Source: an uncultured Thermoanaerobaculia bacterium (GTDB lineage: Bacteria > Acidobacteriota > Thermoanaerobaculia > Multivoradales > Multivoraceae). From it: 64,000 nt of DNA. How positions within the stretch are numbered: the stretch's first letter is position 1; every line of letters starts with the position of its first letter. Positions 3,541 through 13,237 of this stretch are shown piece after piece. Made by a program: the position numbers and the translations under genes. The DNA lies in contig CATOTG010000006.1 in NCBI GenBank assembly GCA_951813015.1, positions 1,083,501-1,147,500 of the forward strand, in the 5' to 3' direction. Under the pieces are notes generated by a model. That model did not search any database. It was not told the DNA's origin and saw only the letters and a program-made list of their open reading frames with translations.

Positions 3541-3578
3541 TCGACAGTGGCGCATGGATGCGCATACAGTATGCGCAT
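3541..3578 (+). promoter_or_regulatory. ccdAB promoter with palindromic operator over the -10
   Basis: A -35-like TCGACA (3541-3546), an 18-nt spacer and a -10-like TACAGT (3565-3570) form a good sigma70-type promoter. A perfect inverted repeat, ATGCGCATAC / GTATGCGCAT with one central base, covers 3558-3578 and so overlaps the -10 and the ATG codons. Toxin-antitoxin operons are typically autorepressed through such sites; assigning this as the CcdA/CcdB operator is inference. The predicted transcription start is about 3577. Confidence 0.6.
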
Positions 3579-3840
3579 GACGTTGGCCGGCAAGAGCTTC
3601 GGGCTATATGACGAGTCGGCTCGGAAGCGGCCGGCGAACCTCTCCATCAATAGCGATCTACTGGCAAAGGCTCGGGCCTTGGGTGTCAACCTGTCCGGAG
3701 CACTTGAGGAAGCGCTGGTCGACCGGCTGGCTCGGCAACGGAGACGGGACTGGATCGAATCCAATCGGACAGCGATCCGGTCCTACAACCAACGGGTCGA
3801 GGCCGAGGGAGTGTTCGGGGATCGGATGCGGCGCTTCTGA
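3577..3840 (+). CDS. ccdA: CcdA-family antitoxin
   Basis: Antitoxin of a type II toxin-antitoxin pair. In this family the N-terminal ribbon-helix-helix domain binds DNA for autoregulation and the disordered C-terminus wraps and neutralises CcdB. The protein is about 87 residues, with an N-terminal section NLSINSDLLAKARALGVNLS and a C-terminal W-I-E-S-N ... Y-N-Q-R-V-E-x-x-G-V-F-x-D element typical of the CcdA toxin-binding tail. The start is the second of two in-frame ATGs (3571 and 3577), because the predicted transcription start falls at about 3577. There is no Shine-Dalgarno sequence, so a leaderless mRNA is likely. The stop codon overlaps the ccdB start by one base (TGATG), giving translational coupling. 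Confidence 0.8.
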   Translation: MTLAGKSFGLYDESARKRPANLSINSDLLAKARALGVNLSGALEEALVDRLARQRRRDWIESNRTAIRSYNQRVEAEGVFGDRMRRF

Positions 3841-4154
3841 TGGCCCAGTTCGATCTCTACACGAATCCGAGCAAGGAAACGAGCGGTGCCGTTCCCTTTC
3901 TGCTCGACCTCCAGTCCGACCTGCTCGATCCCTTGGCAACGAGAGTTGTCGCGCCGCTCTTCCGGGCGGAGTCAGCGGGGCCTCCCGCGAGGACGCTGAT
4001 GCCTCGCTTCGAGATCGACGGGCGGCAAGTCGTCATGTCCACCCCGGAGCTGGCGGGAGTGTCGCGCGGCCAACTCGGTTCGCGAGTCGGGTCTTTAGCC
4101 CACCGTCGCGACGACATCATCGCGGCCCTGGACATGCTCTTCACGGGCATCTAG
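3840..4154 (+). CDS. ccdB: CcdB-family toxin
   Basis: Toxin partner of CcdA; classical CcdB poisons DNA gyrase subunit A. The 104-residue length and features match the family: an N-terminal F-D-L-Y-T-N strand, the L-L-D-L-Q-S-D-L-L-D segment, V-A-P-L in mid-protein, and a C-terminal D-D-I-I-A-A-L-D-M-L-F-T-G-I. In E. coli CcdB the last three residues Trp-Gly-Ile are needed for gyrase poisoning. Here the Trp position is Thr while Gly-Ile is kept, so target or strength may differ. Translation is coupled to ccdA by a one-base overlap. A chromosomal, isolated pair; no plasmid genes are adjacent. Confidence 0.8.
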   Translation: MAQFDLYTNPSKETSGAVPFLLDLQSDLLDPLATRVVAPLFRAESAGPPARTLMPRFEIDGRQVVMSTPELAGVSRGQLGSRVGSLAHRRDDIIAALDMLFTGI

Positions 4155-4283: not shown

Positions 4284-4362
4284 TCTTCACGGTTTGGTGA
4301 CCCTTCTTTTCACCGTCTCTTGACGGCTTTCGCGGCGTCTCTTCACAACGGAGCCGAAGAAT
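4284..4362 (+). promoter_or_regulatory. Predicted Pho box and promoter for the beta-helix/TonB operon
   Basis: Heptamers resembling TCTTCAC lie on one helical face: TTTTCAC at 4307, TCTTGAC at 4318, a degenerate unit at 4329 and TCTTCAC at 4340, all 11 bp apart, with another TCTTCAC at 4284 (23 bp upstream). Known Pho boxes are tandem 7-mers (consensus CTGTCAT/C) at 11-bp phase, replacing the -35 and ending 10 bp before the -10. Here a -10-like AAGAAT (4357-4362) starts exactly 10 bp after the last repeat. Matching sites occur at the porin and phoU. Confidence 0.6.
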
Positions 4363-4389
4363 CCTCCTCCAGAACCACTGGAGGAGGAT
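4361..4389 (+). promoter_or_regulatory. Inverted repeat masking the Shine-Dalgarno of the beta-helix gene
   Basis: Perfect 11-bp inverted repeat: ATCCTCCTCCA (4361-4371), loop GAACCAC, TGGAGGAGGAT (4379-4389). The 3' arm contains the ribosome binding site GGAGGAGG, 4-6 nt before the TTG start at 4393. If transcribed whole, the stem would hide the ribosome binding site. If transcription starts at about 4369, as the -10 predicts, the 5' arm is mostly not transcribed and the repeat would act as DNA or be accidental. Confidence 0.55.
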
Positions 4390-4392
4390 CAC

Positions 4393-6111
4393 TTGATTCT
4401 GCATCGGCTTGTCTCGTCTGCCTGCCGGAACGCCCCGTTCCGGGCGGGTTTCCTGTTGACGGCGGCTTCGGCTCTGCCGGTCGCGGCCTTCTTTCCGCCG
4501 GTTGAACCGGGCATCCCGAATCGCCCGGCCATCCTGCTGGAAACCAACTTCTACGTCTTCACCTCCGCGCTCGAGCTGACCGAGCCGGACCTCGACCTGA
4601 CCCTGGACGCCAGGGGGTATACGACCCCGGCGACGGTCTACCTGTACTGGGAGGAGCGGGCGACCCAGGCCAGGACCTGGTACAACCAGGGAACGAACTC
4701 GTTCGGCGCCGAGGAGACCGACGTGTTCGGTTCCGCCGGCGCGGTGCAGGCGATCGATCTCACCGGACTGGGGCGCCGGTTGGGAGCGTCGTCGAACACC
4801 TTCCGGCTGTTCGGCAGCGGCGGCGCACTCGGTGAACTGCCGGCGTCCGTGCCGCGGGCAACCGGTCTCTACCAGTTCGTGCTGGAGATCCGGGACGCGG
4901 CGGGAGACAAGGTCATCGCGCGGGGCAACGCGATGTACAGCCACGTGGACGCCGTGATCCACAAGGTTGGCAACATCGCGTCGAGCGAGACCTGGACTGC
5001 GAACAATGCGTACTACCTGAACGGCCCGACCTTCATCGACGGCGGGGCGACTCTGACGATCGAGCCCGGCACGTTCGTTTTCGGGGGCAACGTCAACCAG
5101 GGCGTGCTGGTGGTCAAGCCCGGCTCGAAGATCATGGCCGCCGGCACGGCCCGGATGCCGATCGTCATGACGTCGGAGTTCGATGTCGGCGAGCGGGCGC
5201 CGGGCGACTGGGGCGGCCTCGTGATCAGTGGCAACGCTCCCTGCAACGTCTGTCCCCGCGAGGGCGAGGGCGACTCGGGTCTGTTTGGCGGCAGCAACGC
5301 GGCGGACTCGAGCGGCCGGCTCTCGTACGTGCGGGTCGAGTTCGCCGGCATCCGGTTCACCGATGAGAACGAGCTGAACGGCATCGCTCTGCAGGGCGTC
5401 GGCAGCGGTACGCAGATCGACCACGTCCAGGTCCACCACAACGCGGACGACGGCATCGAGTTCTTCGGCGGCACGGTGGACGCGAAGTACGTGCTGATCA
5501 CCGACTCCCAGGACGACAGCATCGACTGGACGTTCGGCTGGCGGGGCCGGATGCAGCACGCGGTCGTTCTGCAGCGTTTCGACGACCACGACAAGGGGAT
5601 CGAGGCGGACAACGAGAAGTCGAACAACAACCTCGAGCCGCGCTCCCATCCGACGATCTACAACCTGACCATCTCGATGTGGCGCGACTCGGGCGATCCG
5701 GGGATTCTGCTGCGTCGCGGCACGGCGATCACGTTGCGCAACGCGATCGTCATGAACGCCAAGGACTACGCGGTGGACATCGACGGCGCGGTGACCGCGA
5801 GCCTGGTGGGGAACCTGCTGACGATCGACGACAGCATCTTCTTCAACAACCGGGACGGCTTCGCCAACGTCGATCTTGAGGCGACGAACATCCTGGCCTC
5901 CGATCCACTGCTTCCCAACTCGCGGAGCCGCGTGCAGCCGGACCTGGCGCCCCTGCCGGGTTCGCCGGCCCGCTCGGGCGGCGCGCCGATACCCGCGGCC
6001 GCCGCCGCCTCCTCGGGAGACGGCTTTTTCGATGCCGTGACCCACATCGGCGGCGTCTCGCCGGAAGACCCGTGGGTCGACGACGGCTGGACCACCTTCT
6101 CGGACAACTAA
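4393..6111 (+). CDS. Secreted right-handed parallel beta-helix protein of unknown function
   Basis: Exported protein of 572 residues. A signal-peptide-like segment spans about residues 16-34 (F-R-A-G-F-L-L-T-A-A-S-A-L-P-V-A). The middle of the protein (about 190-470) is built of short repeats rich in G, N, D and V (such as V-H-H-N-A-D-D-G-I-E-F-F-G-G), the signature of a parallel beta-helix. One Cys pair, CNVC, lies in the helix. No catalytic motif of a known polysaccharide lyase was recognised. Start is TTG preceded by the strong ribosome binding site GGAGGAGG, itself inside an inverted repeat. The TonB receptor follows after a short gap, so the two probably form an operon. The upstream Pho-box-like repeats suggest a role in scavenging a phosphorylated substrate; this is inference. 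Confidence 0.7.
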   Translation: MILHRLVSSACRNAPFRAGFLLTAASALPVAAFFPPVEPGIPNRPAILLETNFYVFTSALELTEPDLDLTLDARGYTTPATVYLYWEERATQARTWYNQGTNSFGAEETDVFGSAGAVQAIDLTGLGRRLGASSNTFRLFGSGGALGELPASVPRATGLYQFVLEIRDAAGDKVIARGNAMYSHVDAVIHKVGNIASSETWTANNAYYLNGPTFIDGGATLTIEPGTFVFGGNVNQGVLVVKPGSKIMAAGTARMPIVMTSEFDVGERAPGDWGGLVISGNAPCNVCPREGEGDSGLFGGSNAADSSGRLSYVRVEFAGIRFTDENELNGIALQGVGSGTQIDHVQVHHNADDGIEFFGGTVDAKYVLITDSQDDSIDWTFGWRGRMQHAVVLQRFDDHDKGIEADNEKSNNNLEPRSHPTIYNLTISMWRDSGDPGILLRRGTAITLRNAIVMNAKDYAVDIDGAVTASLVGNLLTIDDSIFFNNRDGFANVDLEATNILASDPLLPNSRSRVQPDLAPLPGSPARSGGAPIPAAAAASSGDGFFDAVTHIGGVSPEDPWVDDGWTTFSDN

Positions 6112-6152
6112 GGGCAATGAACTTCACAGAGCACACAGGAGCAGGTTTCACC

Positions 6153-8957
6153 ATGCACAACACAGGCGCCCGCGGGGACGCGGGATCCACCACGCGACGG
6201 CTCATCGACGTAGCGGTCGCGATACTCGCGGTCTGTTTCCTTGCCGCCGGCGCGGCGGTCGCCGAGGACGGCGCCGCCACCGGCATGATCCTCGATGGCC
6301 GCAGCGGCGCGCCGGTGCGCGGCGCCACGGTTGCGGTCGAGGGCGGCCTGGCGTCCGCAACGACGTCGGTCGACGGCGCGTTCCAACTGGCGTTGCCGGC
6401 CGGCACGCATTCCGTCGTCGTGTCGGCGGAGGGCTACGAATCCCGGCGCATTCTCGATGTCGTGGTCGAGGCGGACGGTGTGGCGCGGTTCAGCGCGGTG
6501 CTCATGCCGGCCGGCCAGGGCGCCGGCCAGGAAGTCGCGCTGGCGGACACGATCACGGTCGAGGCGGCGGCGGTCGATGCTTCGGCCTCGGCTCTTCTGG
6601 CCGAACGCAAGGCGTCGGCCGAGATCATCGACAACATCGGCTCGGAGGAGATCTCGAAGAACAGTGGTTCCGACGCCGCCGACGCCCTGCGCCGGGTGAC
6701 CGGCATCTCGCTTCAGGACAGCAAGTTCGCCTATGTCCGCGGTCTCGGCGACCGCTACGGCAACACGACCCTGGACGGCTCGCGCATCCCCTCGACGGAG
6801 TTCGAGCGCAAGGTCGTGCCGCTCGACCTGTTCGACGCCGACCTGCTGGACAACATCACGGTCAGGAAGTCGTACTCGCCGGAACAGCCGGGCGACTTCG
6901 CCGCCGGGGCGATTGAACTCGTGACCCGGAGCTTCCCGGCGCGCCAGGTGCTCTCCGTCGGCCTCTCGAGCGGTCACAACTCCCAGACCACGGGCGACCC
7001 GCTTCTCCAGGACCCGATGGGCCTCGGTTCCTCCGGCGCCGGTGGCCAGCCGCTGCCGGCCGACTTCCCGGATCGGGCGGTCGTGCGCCAGAGCCGTTTC
7101 CTGGGCATCGGCTTCGGCAGCGCCGATCTCGAACAGTTGGGCGAACGGATCGCCGGCCGCTGGACTCCGACCGACAGCGACGACGCCCCGCTCGGCCGCG
7201 GCGGGAAGATCGCCTACGGCAACACCTTCGGCGGCTTCGGGGTCATGGTGGCCGGAAACTGGGACAACAGTTTCGAGTCCCGCGCCGAGCAGCGAACGTT
7301 CTACTCGGTCGGCCAGGGCGGCGCGATCGTGCCGCTGCACGCTTACGACTTCGACTACGGCGTGGAGCAGGTGAAGAGTTCCTGGATGGGCAACTTCTCG
7401 CTCCGGGCGGGCGATGGCGGCCACATCGAGATCCGGTCGCTGCAGACGAACCTCAGCATGTCCGAGGCGCGCTTCCAGAAGGGGTTCTTCTCGGACATCA
7501 ACAACGACATCGAGGATCACCGGCTCCAGCATGAGGACCAGAAGGTGTTCAACCTGCAGATCGGCGGCGACCACTACGTCTCGGGCGTCGGCTCGAACGG
7601 CAGCACCTTGACCTGGCGCGGCTCGTCCTCGACGGCCCGAACGCACGAGGATCTGCGCCAGACGATCTACGAACTGTTCGAGGACGGTTTCCGCCTGACG
7701 AACAACGGGCAGAGCGGCTTCATGTACTTCAACGACCTCGAGGACGAGATCGACGACTACCGCGCCAATTGGGAGACGTTCTTCGCCCGCGGCGACCGCT
7801 TCGGCAGTTTCAAGGTCGGCGTGCGCCGCTGGACCAACGACCGGGCCTTCGGCGGCCGGCGTCTCCGCATGTTCCCCAGGAACACGGAGGGCATCGATCT
7901 CACCGGCACGCCGGAGCAGATCTACTCGCCAGCGAACATCGACTTCTTCGGCTTCCAGTTGACCGAAGTGACGAACGCGACGGACAGCTACGGCGCCGAC
8001 TGGGGCGTCGACGCGGCGTACGCGCAGGTCGACTACGGCTGGCGGGACTGGAGGATCGTCGGCGGTCTGCGGCTGGAGGAGTCGGACCAGAACGTCCGCA
8101 CGATCGACCGGACCGCCCTCGGCGGCGCCGAGACGGTGACGAACAAGTCCCATGACGACATCGCCGGTTCACTGAGCGTCATCCGAAGCCTCGGCGCCAC
8201 GCAGAACCTGCGCTTCAGCGTCTCGCGGACAGTCAACCGACCGGAGTTCCGCGAGATCGCGCCGTTCCGCTTCAAGCACATCGTCGGCGGTTTCGTCGTC
8301 GTGGGCAACCCCGATGTCGAGCGCGCCCTGATCGACAGCTTCGACGCCCGCTGGGAGTGGTTCCCGTCGGCGGGCGACGTGGTCGCGACGAGCGTCTTCT
8401 ACAAGAACTTCACGGACCCGATCGAGAGCGTCGTCATCTCGGCCGTCGAGCCGACGGAGACCTTTCGCAACGCGGAGGGCGCCCGCAACCTGGGCCTGGA
8501 GCTCGAGTTCCGCCGCAACCTCGGCTTCGTCGGTTCTGCCGCCGAGAACTGGACGGCCATCTTCAACTACACGTTCATCGACTCCGAGATCCAAATCGAC
8601 GCGGGCGCCACGGTGCTGACGAATCCCGTCCGGCCGTTGACCGGTCAGCCCGAGAACCTGGTCAATCTCGGGCTCGAGTGGGCGCCGGACAGCTACGACA
8701 CGACGCTGCGCGTCCTCTACAGCATGGTGGACGACAAGATCCATCTGGGCGGCGTGTTCGGGCTGCCCGACGTGATCGAGGAGGCGCGGAGCAGCGTGGA
8801 TCTCGTGTGGCGCCAGGGCATCGTCGGCGGCCTGGACCTCAAGCTGGCCGTCGTCAACGTCCTGGACGAAGAGCGCAACTGGCGCCAGGGCAAGGAGACG
8901 TTCCGCCTCTACGATCCGGGCATAGGCATCAGCGTCGGATTGGGGTACTCGTTCTAG
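6153..8957 (+). CDS. TonB-dependent outer-membrane receptor with carboxypeptidase-regulatory-like domain
   Basis: Energy-coupled outer-membrane transporter, 934 residues. Order: signal peptide (about 17-37, ending AAVAED), a carboxypeptidase-regulatory-like beta-sandwich (about 42-120, G-M-I-L-D-G-R-S-G-A-P-V-R-G-A-T), a plug domain (about 140-260 with V-R-G-L-G-D-R-Y-G-N-T-T-L-D-G and P-L-D-L-F), then a beta-barrel ending in the terminal aromatic G-Y-S-F expected for BAM insertion. The start is ATG with AGGAGCAGG upstream; another in-frame ATG 36 nt earlier is possible but has a poorly spaced ribosome binding site. It is the second gene after the Pho-box-like promoter, so its cargo may be phosphate-related. 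The ligand cannot be read from sequence. Confidence 0.85.
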   Translation: MHNTGARGDAGSTTRRLIDVAVAILAVCFLAAGAAVAEDGAATGMILDGRSGAPVRGATVAVEGGLASATTSVDGAFQLALPAGTHSVVVSAEGYESRRILDVVVEADGVARFSAVLMPAGQGAGQEVALADTITVEAAAVDASASALLAERKASAEIIDNIGSEEISKNSGSDAADALRRVTGISLQDSKFAYVRGLGDRYGNTTLDGSRIPSTEFERKVVPLDLFDADLLDNITVRKSYSPEQPGDFAAGAIELVTRSFPARQVLSVGLSSGHNSQTTGDPLLQDPMGLGSSGAGGQPLPADFPDRAVVRQSRFLGIGFGSADLEQLGERIAGRWTPTDSDDAPLGRGGKIAYGNTFGGFGVMVAGNWDNSFESRAEQRTFYSVGQGGAIVPLHAYDFDYGVEQVKSSWMGNFSLRAGDGGHIEIRSLQTNLSMSEARFQKGFFSDINNDIEDHRLQHEDQKVFNLQIGGDHYVSGVGSNGSTLTWRGSSSTARTHEDLRQTIYELFEDGFRLTNNGQSGFMYFNDLEDEIDDYRANWETFFARGDRFGSFKVGVRRWTNDRAFGGRRLRMFPRNTEGIDLTGTPEQIYSPANIDFFGFQLTEVTNATDSYGADWGVDAAYAQVDYGWRDWRIVGGLRLEESDQNVRTIDRTALGGAETVTNKSHDDIAGSLSVIRSLGATQNLRFSVSRTVNRPEFREIAPFRFKHIVGGFVVVGNPDVERALIDSFDARWEWFPSAGDVVATSVFYKNFTDPIESVVISAVEPTETFRNAEGARNLGLELEFRRNLGFVGSAAENWTAIFNYTFIDSEIQIDAGATVLTNPVRPLTGQPENLVNLGLEWAPDSYDTTLRVLYSMVDDKIHLGGVFGLPDVIEEARSSVDLVWRQGIVGGLDLKLAVVNVLDEERNWRQGKETFRLYDPGIGISVGLGYSF

Positions 8958-8976: not shown

Positions 8977-10136
8977 TTAGAAGTCGAAGTGCAGCAACAA
9001 GCCGAAATGCTCGACCGATCCGGCGCCGTCCGGGTCGGTCGAAACGTAGTTCGCCAGCATTCGAAGGTTGCTGCGGAGGTACCAGTTGAGGGCCAGGGAG
9101 AGACTCTGCTGGCTGCCGCCGGGAACGGAACCGCCGCTGAGATCGATGTGGTCCCAGCGCGCGGCGAGTTCCCACGCGCCCCTGCCTTCGGGCACGGGAG
9201 TTGTCGGCCTCAGCCGGGTGAACGAGCGGCCGCTGCGACTGTAGGGCTTCCTCTCGCCGGTGAAAAACCAGCCCGCTTCGACGTACCGGGCGTCGAAACG
9301 GGCGCTCCGGCCCTCCGGGGAACCAGCCGGCAGGAGGTCGACCTGGGCCGACAGGAGCTCGCCCTGCAGCCACAAGGAACTCCGCGCGAACAGGAACTCG
9401 ACGCCCAGCAGGCGCATGCCGTCGGCCGGCAGCCAGCCGGTGTCGACCTGGCGAGGCGCCAGCCGGACGCCGGTGCGGCCGCGCAGACGGACCGCGTCGG
9501 CGGTGGGCTGGCGGTGCGAGACGGCCACGCCGAGGTGGAGCAGCGGATCGCTTCCCTCGTCTGCGTCCCGGGCGAGACCGGTGAGGCGGCCGGTCAGGCT
9601 CCAGTCCGAACCGGGCCGCATGTCGTAACCGTCGCTGTCGCGGAAGGCGCCGACGGCCCAGGCGACGCGGTCGCCGGGAAGCCGGTCGTGAACCATGAAG
9701 CCGAGGTTGCGGCCCGGCGCCAGGGCGGTGACCGCCGCAGGGCGAGCGACGAAGGCGTGGTAGTTCGAGGATTGCTGGATCGAAAGGCTGAAGGGCTCCT
9801 TGAAGTGCCCGGCGCGGAAGGTGGCCGCGCCGTCGTTCGGCGTTGCCTCGACGAAGACATCGGTGGGCACGATGTCGCCGCTCGCGATGTCGTGCTCGAT
9901 CTTGAACGTGAACCGTCGAGAAACTCGCCGTTCAGCACCAGGCGGACGCGTCGCCAGTCGACGCCGTCCTCGAACCCGAACCGTTCTTCCAGAGCCGGGT
10001 CGGGCGACGAGGCGCTGGCCTCGACGTGGACTCGCCCGCCGACGGAGATGTCGAAGGCGCCCTCTTCGGCCTGCATCGTCGTGGCCACGCTGACCAGAAA
10101 CAGCGCGGCAAGAGCCGGGGAACGGGACATTCGCAC
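8977..10136 (-). pseudogene. Phosphate-selective porin O/P-like gene with one frameshift
   Basis: Outer-membrane porin of the OprO/OprP family, which conducts phosphate or polyphosphate during phosphate limitation. The N-terminal frame begins M-R-M-S-R-S-P with a signal peptide cut near T-M-Q-A-E, continues to L-N-G-E-F-L-D-G, then breaks. The sense resumes one frame over as F-T-F-K-I-E-H-D-I and runs to a C-terminal H-F-D-F, the barrel-insertion signal. The break is a one-base loss near 9917; total length (1160 nt) is exactly one base short of a 386-residue gene. Divergent from phoB and preceded by Pho-box-like repeats. Either a genuine pseudogene or a base error in the assembly; neighbours phoB and phoR are also frameshifted. 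Confidence 0.75.
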
Positions 10137-10224
10137 TCCTCGCCGGGTCGGTATGGGTCTTCGGTGGTCTGGCCGGGAGCAGCCGGCCCGGCGGCCGCTC
10201 GCGCCGTTACGTTGTTGGGAAGGC

Positions 10225-10242
10225 GTGAAGGGACGGTGAAGA
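10225..10242 (-). promoter_or_regulatory. Predicted Pho box between porin and phoB
   Basis: On the minus strand TCTTCAC and CCTTCAC are separated by exactly 11 bp (TCTTCAC-N4-CCTTCAC), the spacing of PhoB half-sites. Orientation points toward the porin gene, whose ATG is about 90 nt downstream. phoB diverges on the other side, so the site could serve both. No convincing -10 was found at the expected place. Confidence 0.55.
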
Positions 10243-10368
10243 TCTTGAAGATAGCGGGGTTCGAGAAGCCGATGTCAGGTCGCGTTCGGGGTTCGGCTTT
10301 ATCGCCCGTTCACGAAAGTCCGGCTAGCCTTGGGCCGGGTCCACCGTGTTGAAGGTTCCGGACGTCCA

Positions 10369-11072
10369 ATGAGCGCCGCGAAGGTCGTCGTCATCGAGGA
10401 CGAACCCGACATCCTCGAGCTGATCGAGTACAACCTCCGCCGGGAGGGCTTCGAGGTCGTGACCGCCGCCAACGGCCGAGCGGGTCTTTCCGTGATCGGT
10501 CGCGAAAAGCCGGACCTCGTGCTGCTCGACCTGTTGCTGCCCGGCCTGGACGGTCTGGATGTCTGCCGCCGCCTTCGCGCGGTGGAATCGACGCGCGACC
10601 TGCCGGTGATCATGGTCACGGCTCGCGGCGAGGAGAGCGACGTCGTTCTGGGTCTGGGCGTCGGCGCCGACGACTACATCCACAAGCCCTTCAGCCCTCG
10701 CGAACTGATCGCCCGCGTCCGGGCCGTCCTGCGCCGGGGGCCGTTGCGCGAAAGCGATCCGGATCAAAGAGTCGTCCGCGGGCCGCTCGTCGTCGACCCG
10801 GTCAGGCACCGGGTCGCGGTCGACGGCCGGCGGCTGGAGTTCACGCCCACCGAGTTCGCCTCGTGCACTTCCTGGCTTCGCATCCGGGCCGCGTCTTCAC
10901 CCGTGGCCAACTCCTGGATCGGGCGATCGGCGATCGGGCAATCGTCATCGACCGGAACATCGACGTTCATGTCCGCGCCGTGCGCAAGAAACTCGGATCG
11001 CACCGCGACCTGATCGAGACGGTGCGCGGCATCGGCTACAGCTTCCGCGAAGACGAGGGCCGGGACGTGTAG
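10369..11072 (+). pseudogene. phoB: PhoB-type response regulator, frameshifted in the DNA-binding domain
   Basis: OmpR/PhoB-family response regulator. The receiver domain (residues 1-120) is intact: acidic pair near Glu10-Asp11, phospho-acceptor Asp54 in L-L-D-L-L-L-P-G, and the conserved Lys in H-K-P-F. The winged-helix domain reads to F-T-P-T-E-F-A and then loses frame. One frame over it continues H-F-L-A-S-H-P-G-R-V-F-T-R-G-Q-L-L to G-Y-S-F, a canonical PhoB-type C-terminus. Inserting one base near 10860 (a C in GCCTC) restores the full protein. Start is ATG giving M-S-A-A-K-V-V-V-I-E-D-E; the GAAGG upstream is distant. phoR begins about 50 nt after the stop. As written, the protein could not bind DNA. 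Confidence 0.8.
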
Positions 11073-11121
11073 GTTGTGGATACCCGGCTCGGCCGGATTC
11101 CCGGCCGTCTCAGGGGTTCCC

Positions 11122-12501
11122 ATGATTGGCTCACCTCTCTTCTGGCGTCTCTTTCTGGGCGGAGTCGCGCTGCTGGCTTCGGTCTGTTGCTGGGGCGGCG
11201 CGGGCGCCTCAGGCCGGACGGGCGCGGTCCTGGTCGGGGCGGTGGCGCTTCTGGCCGCGGCCGGCGCCGGTCTCGCCGCCGGCCGGTTGGCGGGCGGGCG
11301 CGAAGCCTGCTGGCCAGAGCCGCGGCGCTGGGCTCCCCCGGGCCGCCTCGGCGGGCCGGTCGCGGTGACGAATTCGCCCGCCTCGAGGCTTGTCTCGAGG
11401 AGAACGAAGCGCGTTTCGTGGAACAGGTCGAACAGCTCAGGGCGGAACGCAATCAGCTGACGGCGGTGCTGGGCGGCATGGTCGAGGGTGTGGTGGCGAT
11501 CGATCTCGACCGGCATGTGCTGCACCTGAACGCGGTCGCCGCGAAGTGGTTCAGACGCCCGGCGCCGGAGTCGGCGGTCGGACGTCCGATCTACGAACTG
11601 TCGCGCCAGCCGGAGATCTCGGGCGCTCTGATCGAGGCGATGGAGAGGCGGAGGCAGGTGAGTCGCACCTTCACCCTGGCCCGCTTCGCCGGCCAGGTCG
11701 ACGGACCGAACAGGTTCGAGCTGAACGCGTCGCCCCTGCTCTCGTCCCGCCGGGACGACGAAGTGGTCGAAGGGGCGGTGGCCGTGATCCACGACATCAC
11801 GGAGTTGGAGCGCCTGGAGAGCGTGCGGCGGGACTTCGTGTCGAATGTCTCGCACGAGCTGAAGACGCCGCTTACCGCGATTCACGGCTACGTGGAAACC
11901 CTGCTGGAGGCCGATCCGATCGACGGTCCGACGCGTGGCCGCTTCCTGCGCAAGATCCGCCGGCAGAGCAACCGTCTGGGCGCGCTGGTTTCCGATCTGC
12001 TCACTCTGTCGCGGATCGAGTCCGCGGCCGAGCCGCCGGCGACGATCCTCGATCTGCGGTCGCCGGCCGGCGAAGTGTTGAATCTGCTAGGTCCGGCGGG
12101 CGAGGAGCGCGGTCTCGAACTGGTCGCCGACTTCCCGCAGGCAGCGGTCGAGGTCCTGGGCGAAGAGGAAGCGATCCGGCAGGCGCTGTCGAACCTGGTC
12201 GACAACGCGGTCAAGTACTCGTCGTCAGGCGGTCGCGTGCTCGTTCGCCTGCAGACGGAGAACGGGCGGGCGGTGCTCGAGTGTCGAAGACGAGGGACCG
12301 GGCATCGCCGGCGAACATCTGGACCGGATCTTCGAACGCTTCTACCGTGTCGACCGGGCCCGTTCCAGGGAGCTCGGCGGCACCGGCCTCGGCCTGGCGA
12401 TCGTCAAGAACGTCGCCAGACGGCACGGTGGCGGAGTAGAGGTGGAAAGCGAACGGGGGCGGGGCTCGACGTTCCGTTTCTGGTTGCCCTCCGCCGGCTG
12501 A
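11122..12501 (+). pseudogene. phoR: PhoR-type sensor histidine kinase with two frameshifts
   Basis: Membrane sensor kinase partner of PhoB. The N-terminus (M-I-G-S-P-L-F-W) has two hydrophobic segments within about 55 residues. A linker leads to a PAS-like domain (V-L-G-G-M-V-E-G-V-V-A-I-D), the dimerisation/phospho-acceptor box V-S-H-E-L-K-T-P-L-T, the N box [10 protein letters not shown], then G1/G2 boxes ([19 protein letters not shown]). The membrane part and the G boxes are in one frame and the middle kilobase in another. One base appears lost in the GC-rich run near 11300 and a T gained near 12282 (GAG-T-GTC). Both must be corrected for a complete kinase. An ATG with AGGGG upstream is preferred to an earlier TTG. 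Confidence 0.8.
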
Positions 12502-12506
12502 TGCGG

Positions 12507-12540
12507 GCTTCACGCGCTCTTCACATGGTTGCGCGACATT
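12507..12540 (+). promoter_or_regulatory. Predicted Pho box and promoter for phoU
   Basis: GCTTCAC (12507-12513) and TCTTCAC (12518-12524) are 11 bp apart, and a -10-like GACATT (12535-12540) follows exactly 10 bp after the second repeat. It lies just after the phoR stop, about 40 nt before phoU. Same sequence and geometry as the repeats before the beta-helix gene and the porin. Confidence 0.6.
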
Positions 12541-12580: not shown

Positions 12581-13237
12581 TTGAGGATTCACCTGCAACG
12601 AGACCTTGACCAGGTGACGCGGTCGCTGCTGGAAGTAGCGGCGATGGTCGAGGAGATGATCGCCGGGTCGCTCAGGGCGCTTCGGGAGCGGAGCGTCGAT
12701 CTGGCCCACGAGGTCCAGCGCAAGGATCGCGTGATCGACGCCCGCGAGATCGAGGTCGAAGAGGAGTGCCTCAAGATCCTCGCCCTGCACTCGCCGGTTG
12801 CCTCGGACCTCCGGATGGTCGTGACCTACCTGAAGGTGAACAACGATCTCGAACGGGCCGGCGATCTGGCCCGCAATCTCGCCGAGCGCGCGGAGAGTCT
12901 AGCGGTAGCCGAGCCGGTCGATATTCCGGAAGAGATCTGGGTCATGGCCGAGAGCATCCCGAAGATGCTCCGAGCGGCTCTCGACGCGGTCGTGGGTGGC
13001 GACACGGAACTCGCCCGCTCGGTCATCGCGGAGGACGAGGTCGTCGACCGCAGCCACGAGGCGATGTACGGCGTGGTTCGGAGGATGATCGAGAAGGAAC
13101 AGGCTTCGGTCGGCGTCAGCATCCAGTTCCTGTCGATCTCCCGCTATCTCGAGCGCCTGGCGGACCTGGCGACGAACATCGCCGAGGATGTCGTCTTCCT
13201 CGTCGACGGCGAAGTCGTGCGTCACCAGGCGTTGTAG
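12581..13237 (+). CDS. phoU: PhoU phosphate-signalling regulator
   Basis: Two-repeat, all-helical cytoplasmic protein of 218 residues that in other bacteria couples the Pst transporter state to PhoR and dampens Pho regulon expression. Both PhoU repeats are visible: E-E-E-C-L-K-I-L-A-L-H-S-P-V-A-S-D-L-R near residue 62 and a second helical pair with S-I-Q-F-L-S-I-S-R-Y-L-E-R-L-A-D-L-A-T-N after about 175; the metal-contacting E/D-rich helices are present. Start is TTG with AGGA 8 nt upstream. Intact, unlike phoB and phoR immediately upstream. Has its own Pho-box-like promoter, so expression apart from phoBR is likely. No pstSCAB genes lie in the window. Confidence 0.9.
   Translation: MRIHLQRDLDQVTRSLLEVAAMVEEMIAGSLRALRERSVDLAHEVQRKDRVIDAREIEVEEECLKILALHSPVASDLRMVVTYLKVNNDLERAGDLARNLAERAESLAVAEPVDIPEEIWVMAESIPKMLRAALDAVVGGDTELARSVIAEDEVVDRSHEAMYGVVRRMIEKEQASVGVSIQFLSISRYLERLADLATNIAEDVVFLVDGEVVRHQAL

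Follow-up and report, generated by a model that had tools for sequence, protein, structure and literature searches.

The locus considered here raises the question of what a secreted beta-helix protein and the TonB-dependent receptor encoded directly behind it are doing among the phosphate-regulatory genes of an uncultured bacterium of the Acidobacteriota. The window, a 64,000-nucleotide stretch of contig CATOTG010000006.1, comes from a 4.32 Mb genome in 14 contigs whose closest named relatives are Thermoanaerobaculia MAGs (Acidobacteriota). A preliminary description of this DNA had reported a beta-helix gene followed by a TonB receptor, next to a phosphate porin and phoBRU, and this arrangement was borne out by our annotation: the two genes are adjacent, and genes of the porin O/P, PhoB, PhoR and PhoU types lie downstream. 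The pst operon is located ~11 kb upstream of the beta-helix gene. Features of the region are given below in window coordinates.

4308 to 4346, plus strand: Pho-box-like operator with 11-bp-spaced units, TTCAC (4309), TTGAC (4320), a degenerate unit (4331) and TTCAC (4342).
4361 to 4389, plus strand: RNA hairpin pairing the Shine-Dalgarno sequence GGAGGAGGA of the beta-helix gene (fold -31.8 kcal/mol, z -3.9).
4393 to 6111, plus strand: secreted right-handed beta-helix protein of the ElpS/FII family (Pfam PF13229, Beta_helix).
6117 to 8957, plus strand: TonB-dependent receptor with CarboxypepD_reg, Plug and barrel matches.
8977 to 10136, minus strand: phosphate-selective porin O/P gene (PF07396, E 7e-33), frameshifted in the assembly.
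10225 to 10241, minus strand: Pho-box-like operator before the porin, CTTCACCGTCCCTTCAC, one of three exact matches in the genome.
10330 to 11051, plus strand: phoB-type response regulator (best match TIGR02154, 177 residues) with a one-base frameshift near 10857.
11076 to 12503, plus strand: phoR/pnpS-type sensor kinase (HisKA, PAS; partial matches to NF046044 and TIGR02966) with a frameshift near residue 410.
12508 to 12524, plus strand: operator between phoR and phoU, the third exact match, conserved in congeners.
12581 to 13237, plus strand: phoU (TIGR02135, above its cut-off).

The porin, phoB and phoR genes (8977-12503) each contain a frameshift and are intact in the bacterial relatives examined; past the frameshift near 10857, the C-terminus of PhoB reads on in another frame. 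These frameshifts are probably long-read assembly errors and conceivably real gene loss. Just upstream of the beta-helix gene is a toxin-antitoxin pair of the ccdA/ccdB type (3577-4154), which is found likewise in the related loci L018 and L023. The genome also encodes two tandem pstB genes behind pstSCA (L082, 11253-12838), and similar tandem pstB genes occur in several congeners.

The beta-helix gene and the receptor act as one module, gained or lost together. The receptor gene opens with an ATG at 6117, six bases after the beta-helix gene, and runs to a stop at 8957 (946 aa). Both genes are present in seven of 21 congeners and neither in the other 14 (chance p = 8.6e-6). In the nine pair-less congeners that were inspected directly, the pair is cleanly missing: the gene order is S9 peptidase, porin, phoB, phoR, phoU, tuf, and the interval between peptidase and porin is empty. 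A profile survey of Acidobacteriota detected the beta-helix domain in 38 of 396 genomes, representing 30 of 210 genera, and at every locus with enough flank a receptor stood beside the beta-helix gene, usually within 800 bases. Distance matrices of the two proteins were correlated in a mirror-tree analysis (Spearman 0.63, with 0 of 2000 permutations as high), a value that is partly due to species phylogeny. In the single-contig relative OX638294.1 (L018, 8001-11526), the beta-helix gene is without residues 64-253, apparently in frame, and the receptor is without residues ~674-808. A small secreted protein of unknown family adjoins the pair in L020 (5326-6018) and L021 (1891-2634), and a differently sized one does so in L019 (5542-6654).

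Regulation of the pair was approached through the repeats in front of it, which the preliminary description had singled out as the best Pho-box array of the window. The array is real and conserved, but its rank depends on the matrix used: scored with a Pho-box matrix from E. coli, the array at 4308-4346 came 12th in the window when two units were scored and 3rd with four. Because this matrix failed to single out the site, we turned to conservation, to a count of the pattern over the whole genome and to controls on spacing. The array hardly differs among seven congeners, whereas the stretch preceding it is variable. The pattern YTTCACSNNNYCTTSAC has only three exact matches in the 4.3-Mb genome, one each ahead of the beta-helix gene, the porin and phoU. 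It was derived from the first two of these sites, so the independent evidence consists of the third site and of conservation in congeners that have no pair, nine of which retain TTCAC-N6-TTCAC before both the porin and phoU. A similar repeat, TCTTTACGGGTTGTTCAC, is found upstream of pstS. Conservation of the array and the near-identical site before the porin indicate that the operator at 4308-4346 is real, and its conserved upstream tandem direct repeats with 11-bp spacing are a trait of the PhoB regulon.

Comparable signals accompany the pair elsewhere. Pho boxes scored higher upstream of the pair (27 target regions) than in 153 control upstream regions, both with the E. coli matrix (p = 4e-6) and with a matrix built from this genus's own porin, phoU and pstS sites (p = 7e-7), and the excess was specific to the 11-bp spacing in targets and not seen in controls. 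Random windows had first been tried as a promoter control and were dropped owing to composition bias, and upstream regions of other genes were used instead. Genes of the pho and pst systems were present in the fetched flank of 13 of 37 loci and in none of 20 control regions drawn from these genomes under identical thresholds (Fisher p = 0.0015), some controls being short and related genomes not being fully independent, but with arrangements that vary among families. PhoB was the best NCBIfam match for all seven neighbouring regulators, with scores below the curated cut-off. A putative phosphate-starvation association, already proposed in the preliminary description, is supported by these sequence comparisons, in which homologous pairs were linked both to pho genes and to Pho boxes. 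Three observations count against a phosphate-uptake reading: about two thirds of the survey loci are not adjacent to pho genes, a clear Pho box is absent from many of the upstream regions of the pair, and the phoB, phoR and porin genes of the window itself are frameshifted as read.

The preliminary description did not recognise the pair as a described system, but homologous pairs are known from Caulobacter (ElpS-CC0171) and from Flavobacterium johnsoniae (FI and FII with their TBDTs). Caulobacter ElpS (CC0170), which is paired with CC0171, is made on phosphate starvation, is surface-exposed and released, and has no alkaline phosphatase activity (PMC2996285). As at that locus, a homologous secreted protein is encoded directly beside a TonB receptor in the window, homology being shown via the elpS-TBDR-T2SS layouts of Sphingomonas and Indioceanicola; a Sphingomonas pair with this described order is homologous to the window protein at 37.7% identity (E 4e-34). 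In contrast to ElpS, a lipoprotein (LAGC lipobox) encoded next to a T2SS, the window protein has neither attribute. No T2SS genes were found at the window locus, and genome-wide no GspD exceeded its curated cut-off, secretin matches being limited to sub-cut-off scores. In Caulobacter, the T2SS and several TonB receptors are under PhoB control (PMC11208175).

Resemblance to F. johnsoniae extends to the whole cluster. Its lipoproteins FI, FII and FIII are induced by low phosphate and related to ElpS, FI being the most abundant exoprotein; FI, which is contained in PUSIII, and FII both adjoin low-phosphate TBDTs (PMC8115612). PUSIV consists of OprP (Fjoh_0542), PhoR, PhoB, a TBDT (Fjoh_0545) and the FII lipoprotein (Fjoh_0546), and phosphate depletion strongly induces the TBDT and FII, with log2 fold changes of 8.0 and 9.9, respectively (PMC8115612). 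Compared by description, in which FII is related to polygalacturonase-type beta-helices, the window holds the same five gene types (porin O/P, PhoB, PhoR, TBDT and a secreted beta-helix-type protein). It differs from PUSIV in gene order and in a beta-helix protein without a lipobox and with an added N-terminal domain. The window cluster is the Acidobacterial counterpart of PUSIV, a variant of a described kind. A secreted or surface partner combined with a TonB receptor also recalls SusCD and PusCD, which are likely a working analogy; the partner in the window is a right-handed beta-helix and not a SusD-type helical lid protein. The SusD fold is helical and TPR-like.

Homologous pairs are further carried by plasmids, together with ExbB, ExbD and TonB genes in Pseudoalteromonas, with ExbB-ExbD-TonB and a PstS gene in Alteromonas, and directly before T2SS genes in Indioceanicola and Sphingomonas. 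Annotated plasmids of Bacteroidota also contain the pair, and on a conjugative plasmid of Marinobacter the beta-helix gene occurs with no annotated TonB receptor beside it.

The open reading frame at 4393-6111 begins with TTG and encodes 572 aa, with Beta_helix as its sole Pfam match. A Sec-type leader (residues ~1-32) is followed by an added N-terminal domain of ~145 residues (40-185), which is also present in five related loci of the same class, and by the beta-helix from residue 186 onward. Homologues are ~35-45% identical and span three phyla. A cysteine lipobox was sought in the leader and is absent, as it is from most Acidobacterial members; it is present in Sphingomonas, Bacteroidota and most phage members. 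Ahead of the gene, the strong hairpin at 4361-4389 hides the Shine-Dalgarno sequence and is kept in most congeners with differing loops (it is lost in L016), making translational control of the beta-helix gene possible.

Residues 184-572 were modelled as a right-handed beta-helix (mean pLDDT 78.6, pTM 0.84) using an alignment that included phage homologues. A first model built from close orthologues only (pLDDT 43) was unusable, and its fold matches were ignored. In VIA-align, lyases, epimerases, NosD, adhesins and tailspikes matched the good model with tied Z values near 22; with so many beta-helix proteins tied, the fold names no function and we assign no enzyme class. Searches of PDB sequences with the protein found no relative. 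The earlier remark that it has no recognised catalytic motif holds for the named motifs, none of which was found, but overlooks nine acidic positions shared without exception by 34 homologues in three phyla (E327, D352, D353, E356, D374, D375, D378, E404 and D406). In the model, D352-D353-E356 and D374-D375-D378 fall at equivalent positions on consecutive turns with E404 next, and E356, D378 and E404 are each the second residue of a strand. We infer that the invariant acidic residues line one face of the helix as a site for binding or catalysis.

Our preferred explanation, to which we assign a probability of roughly 0.6, is that the two genes constitute a PhoB-controlled outer-membrane phosphorus-acquisition pair. 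During phosphate starvation, PhoB would bind and activate the operator at 4308-4346, and the beta-helix and receptor genes would be transcribed together. The beta-helix protein would be exported to work at or outside the cell surface, where it may bind a phosphorus-bearing ligand, probably through the ladder of invariant acidic residues, which possibly binds metal. The TonB receptor, presumably in contact with its partner at the surface, would then import the ligand into the periplasm for use by Pst and phosphatases. Capture of a phosphorylated or phosphate-scavenging substrate by the pair, as envisaged in the preliminary description, would fit this scheme. Support from the present analysis comes from gene pairing, co-inheritance, operator conservation, pho linkage, the predicted beta-helix fold and the invariant residues. 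For homologues, work by others has demonstrated induction by phosphate depletion and a surface or extracellular location. Three results from Caulobacter count against uptake: deletion of elpS left secreted phosphatase unchanged, no change in intracellular phosphate was detected, and cc0171 was reported to be expressed in rich and poor media alike (PMC2996285).

Invariant acidic residues on consecutive turns of the modelled helix would also suit an extracellular enzyme, such as a phosphodiesterase, lyase or esterase acting on phosphate-rich polymers, whose products the receptor imports, and the fold is one common to pectate and alginate lyases and polygalacturonases. We regard such an enzyme as unlikely in view of the missing named motifs, the scatter of fold matches over many functions, including adhesins and tailspikes, and the inactivity of ElpS as an alkaline phosphatase. 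Quite improbable, in our judgement, is a helper role of the kind suggested for ElpS, in which the beta-helix protein serves to activate a separate secreted phosphatase or to hold it at the surface, and the receptor imports something else. Overproduction of ElpS, itself not a phosphatase, does raise alkaline phosphatase activity in the culture fluid (PMC2996285); however, the genes for the receptor and the beta-helix protein come and go together and co-vary over three phyla, which favours a direct partnership between the two proteins. Finally, the role of the pair might be unrelated to phosphorus and its nearness to pho genes a matter of chance, as could be argued from the majority of survey loci that are not within 10 kb of such genes. 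Against this stand the repeated pho linkage in different arrangements, the specificity of the Pho boxes for 11-bp spacing and the induction of homologues by low phosphate, and we consider coincidence very improbable.

Pairs in Caulobacter and Flavobacterium were described already; new here are pairs borne by large phages. The same beta-helix profile recovered 224 relatives from IMG/VR, from which 80 loci were kept, and addition of the megaphage LR745206 (634,780 bp) gave 81 viral loci (L119-L199). A TonB receptor lies beside the beta-helix gene at 67 of these loci and in 17 of 24 clusters at 90% identity, and the stop and start codons of the phage pairs often overlap. Several features indicate that the contigs are phages and not stray host DNA. 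Strong terminase matches were obtained on 20 of the 48 viral contigs tested; a 326-kb contig has portal and terminase genes to one side of the pair and an endolysin to the opposite side, and on another contig baseplate wedge genes adjoin the pair. Some viral contigs gave weak terminase matches that proved to fall on PhoH genes; these were not counted toward phage origin, and PhoH is too common to lend support to a phosphate role. All of the invariant acidic motifs looked for are kept in the phage proteins, which mostly have lipoprotein leaders.

The phage pairs showed no enrichment of Pho boxes upstream, and for this reason we put forward phosphorus uptake by them as a hypothesis. A paper on megaphages reported a 'SusC' receptor in LR745206 and took it to serve carbohydrate uptake (PMC9723777). 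From homology to the bacterial pairs, we hypothesize that the phage pairs, including this receptor, may take up phosphorus rather than carbohydrate. A wider proposal, which we advance tentatively and at somewhat less than even odds, is that the pair serves generally, in at least three bacterial phyla, as an outer-membrane phosphorus uptake complex independent of SusD, and that large phages, LR745206 with its 'SusC' among them, repeatedly acquired it as an auxiliary metabolic unit of two genes that brings phosphorus into infected cells. A literature search of partial coverage returned no report of ElpS-type pairs in phages. The analysis unites as one family three things noted separately, Caulobacter ElpS, Flavobacterium FI and the unannotated Acidobacterial pair, and provides this family with a fold, invariant residues open to mutation and a predicted partner. 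If the proposal is true, large phages carry outer-membrane phosphorus importers, and the known phage phosphate genes would extend to the outer membrane.

Two minor observations concern the viral contigs themselves. Terminase genes with internal TGA or TAA codons, which may reflect introns, frameshifts or recoding, were seen on the contigs of L193, L197, L161, L170, L171 and L175. Among the phage genes flanking the viral loci is one with a match to the Thoeris inhibitor Tad3.
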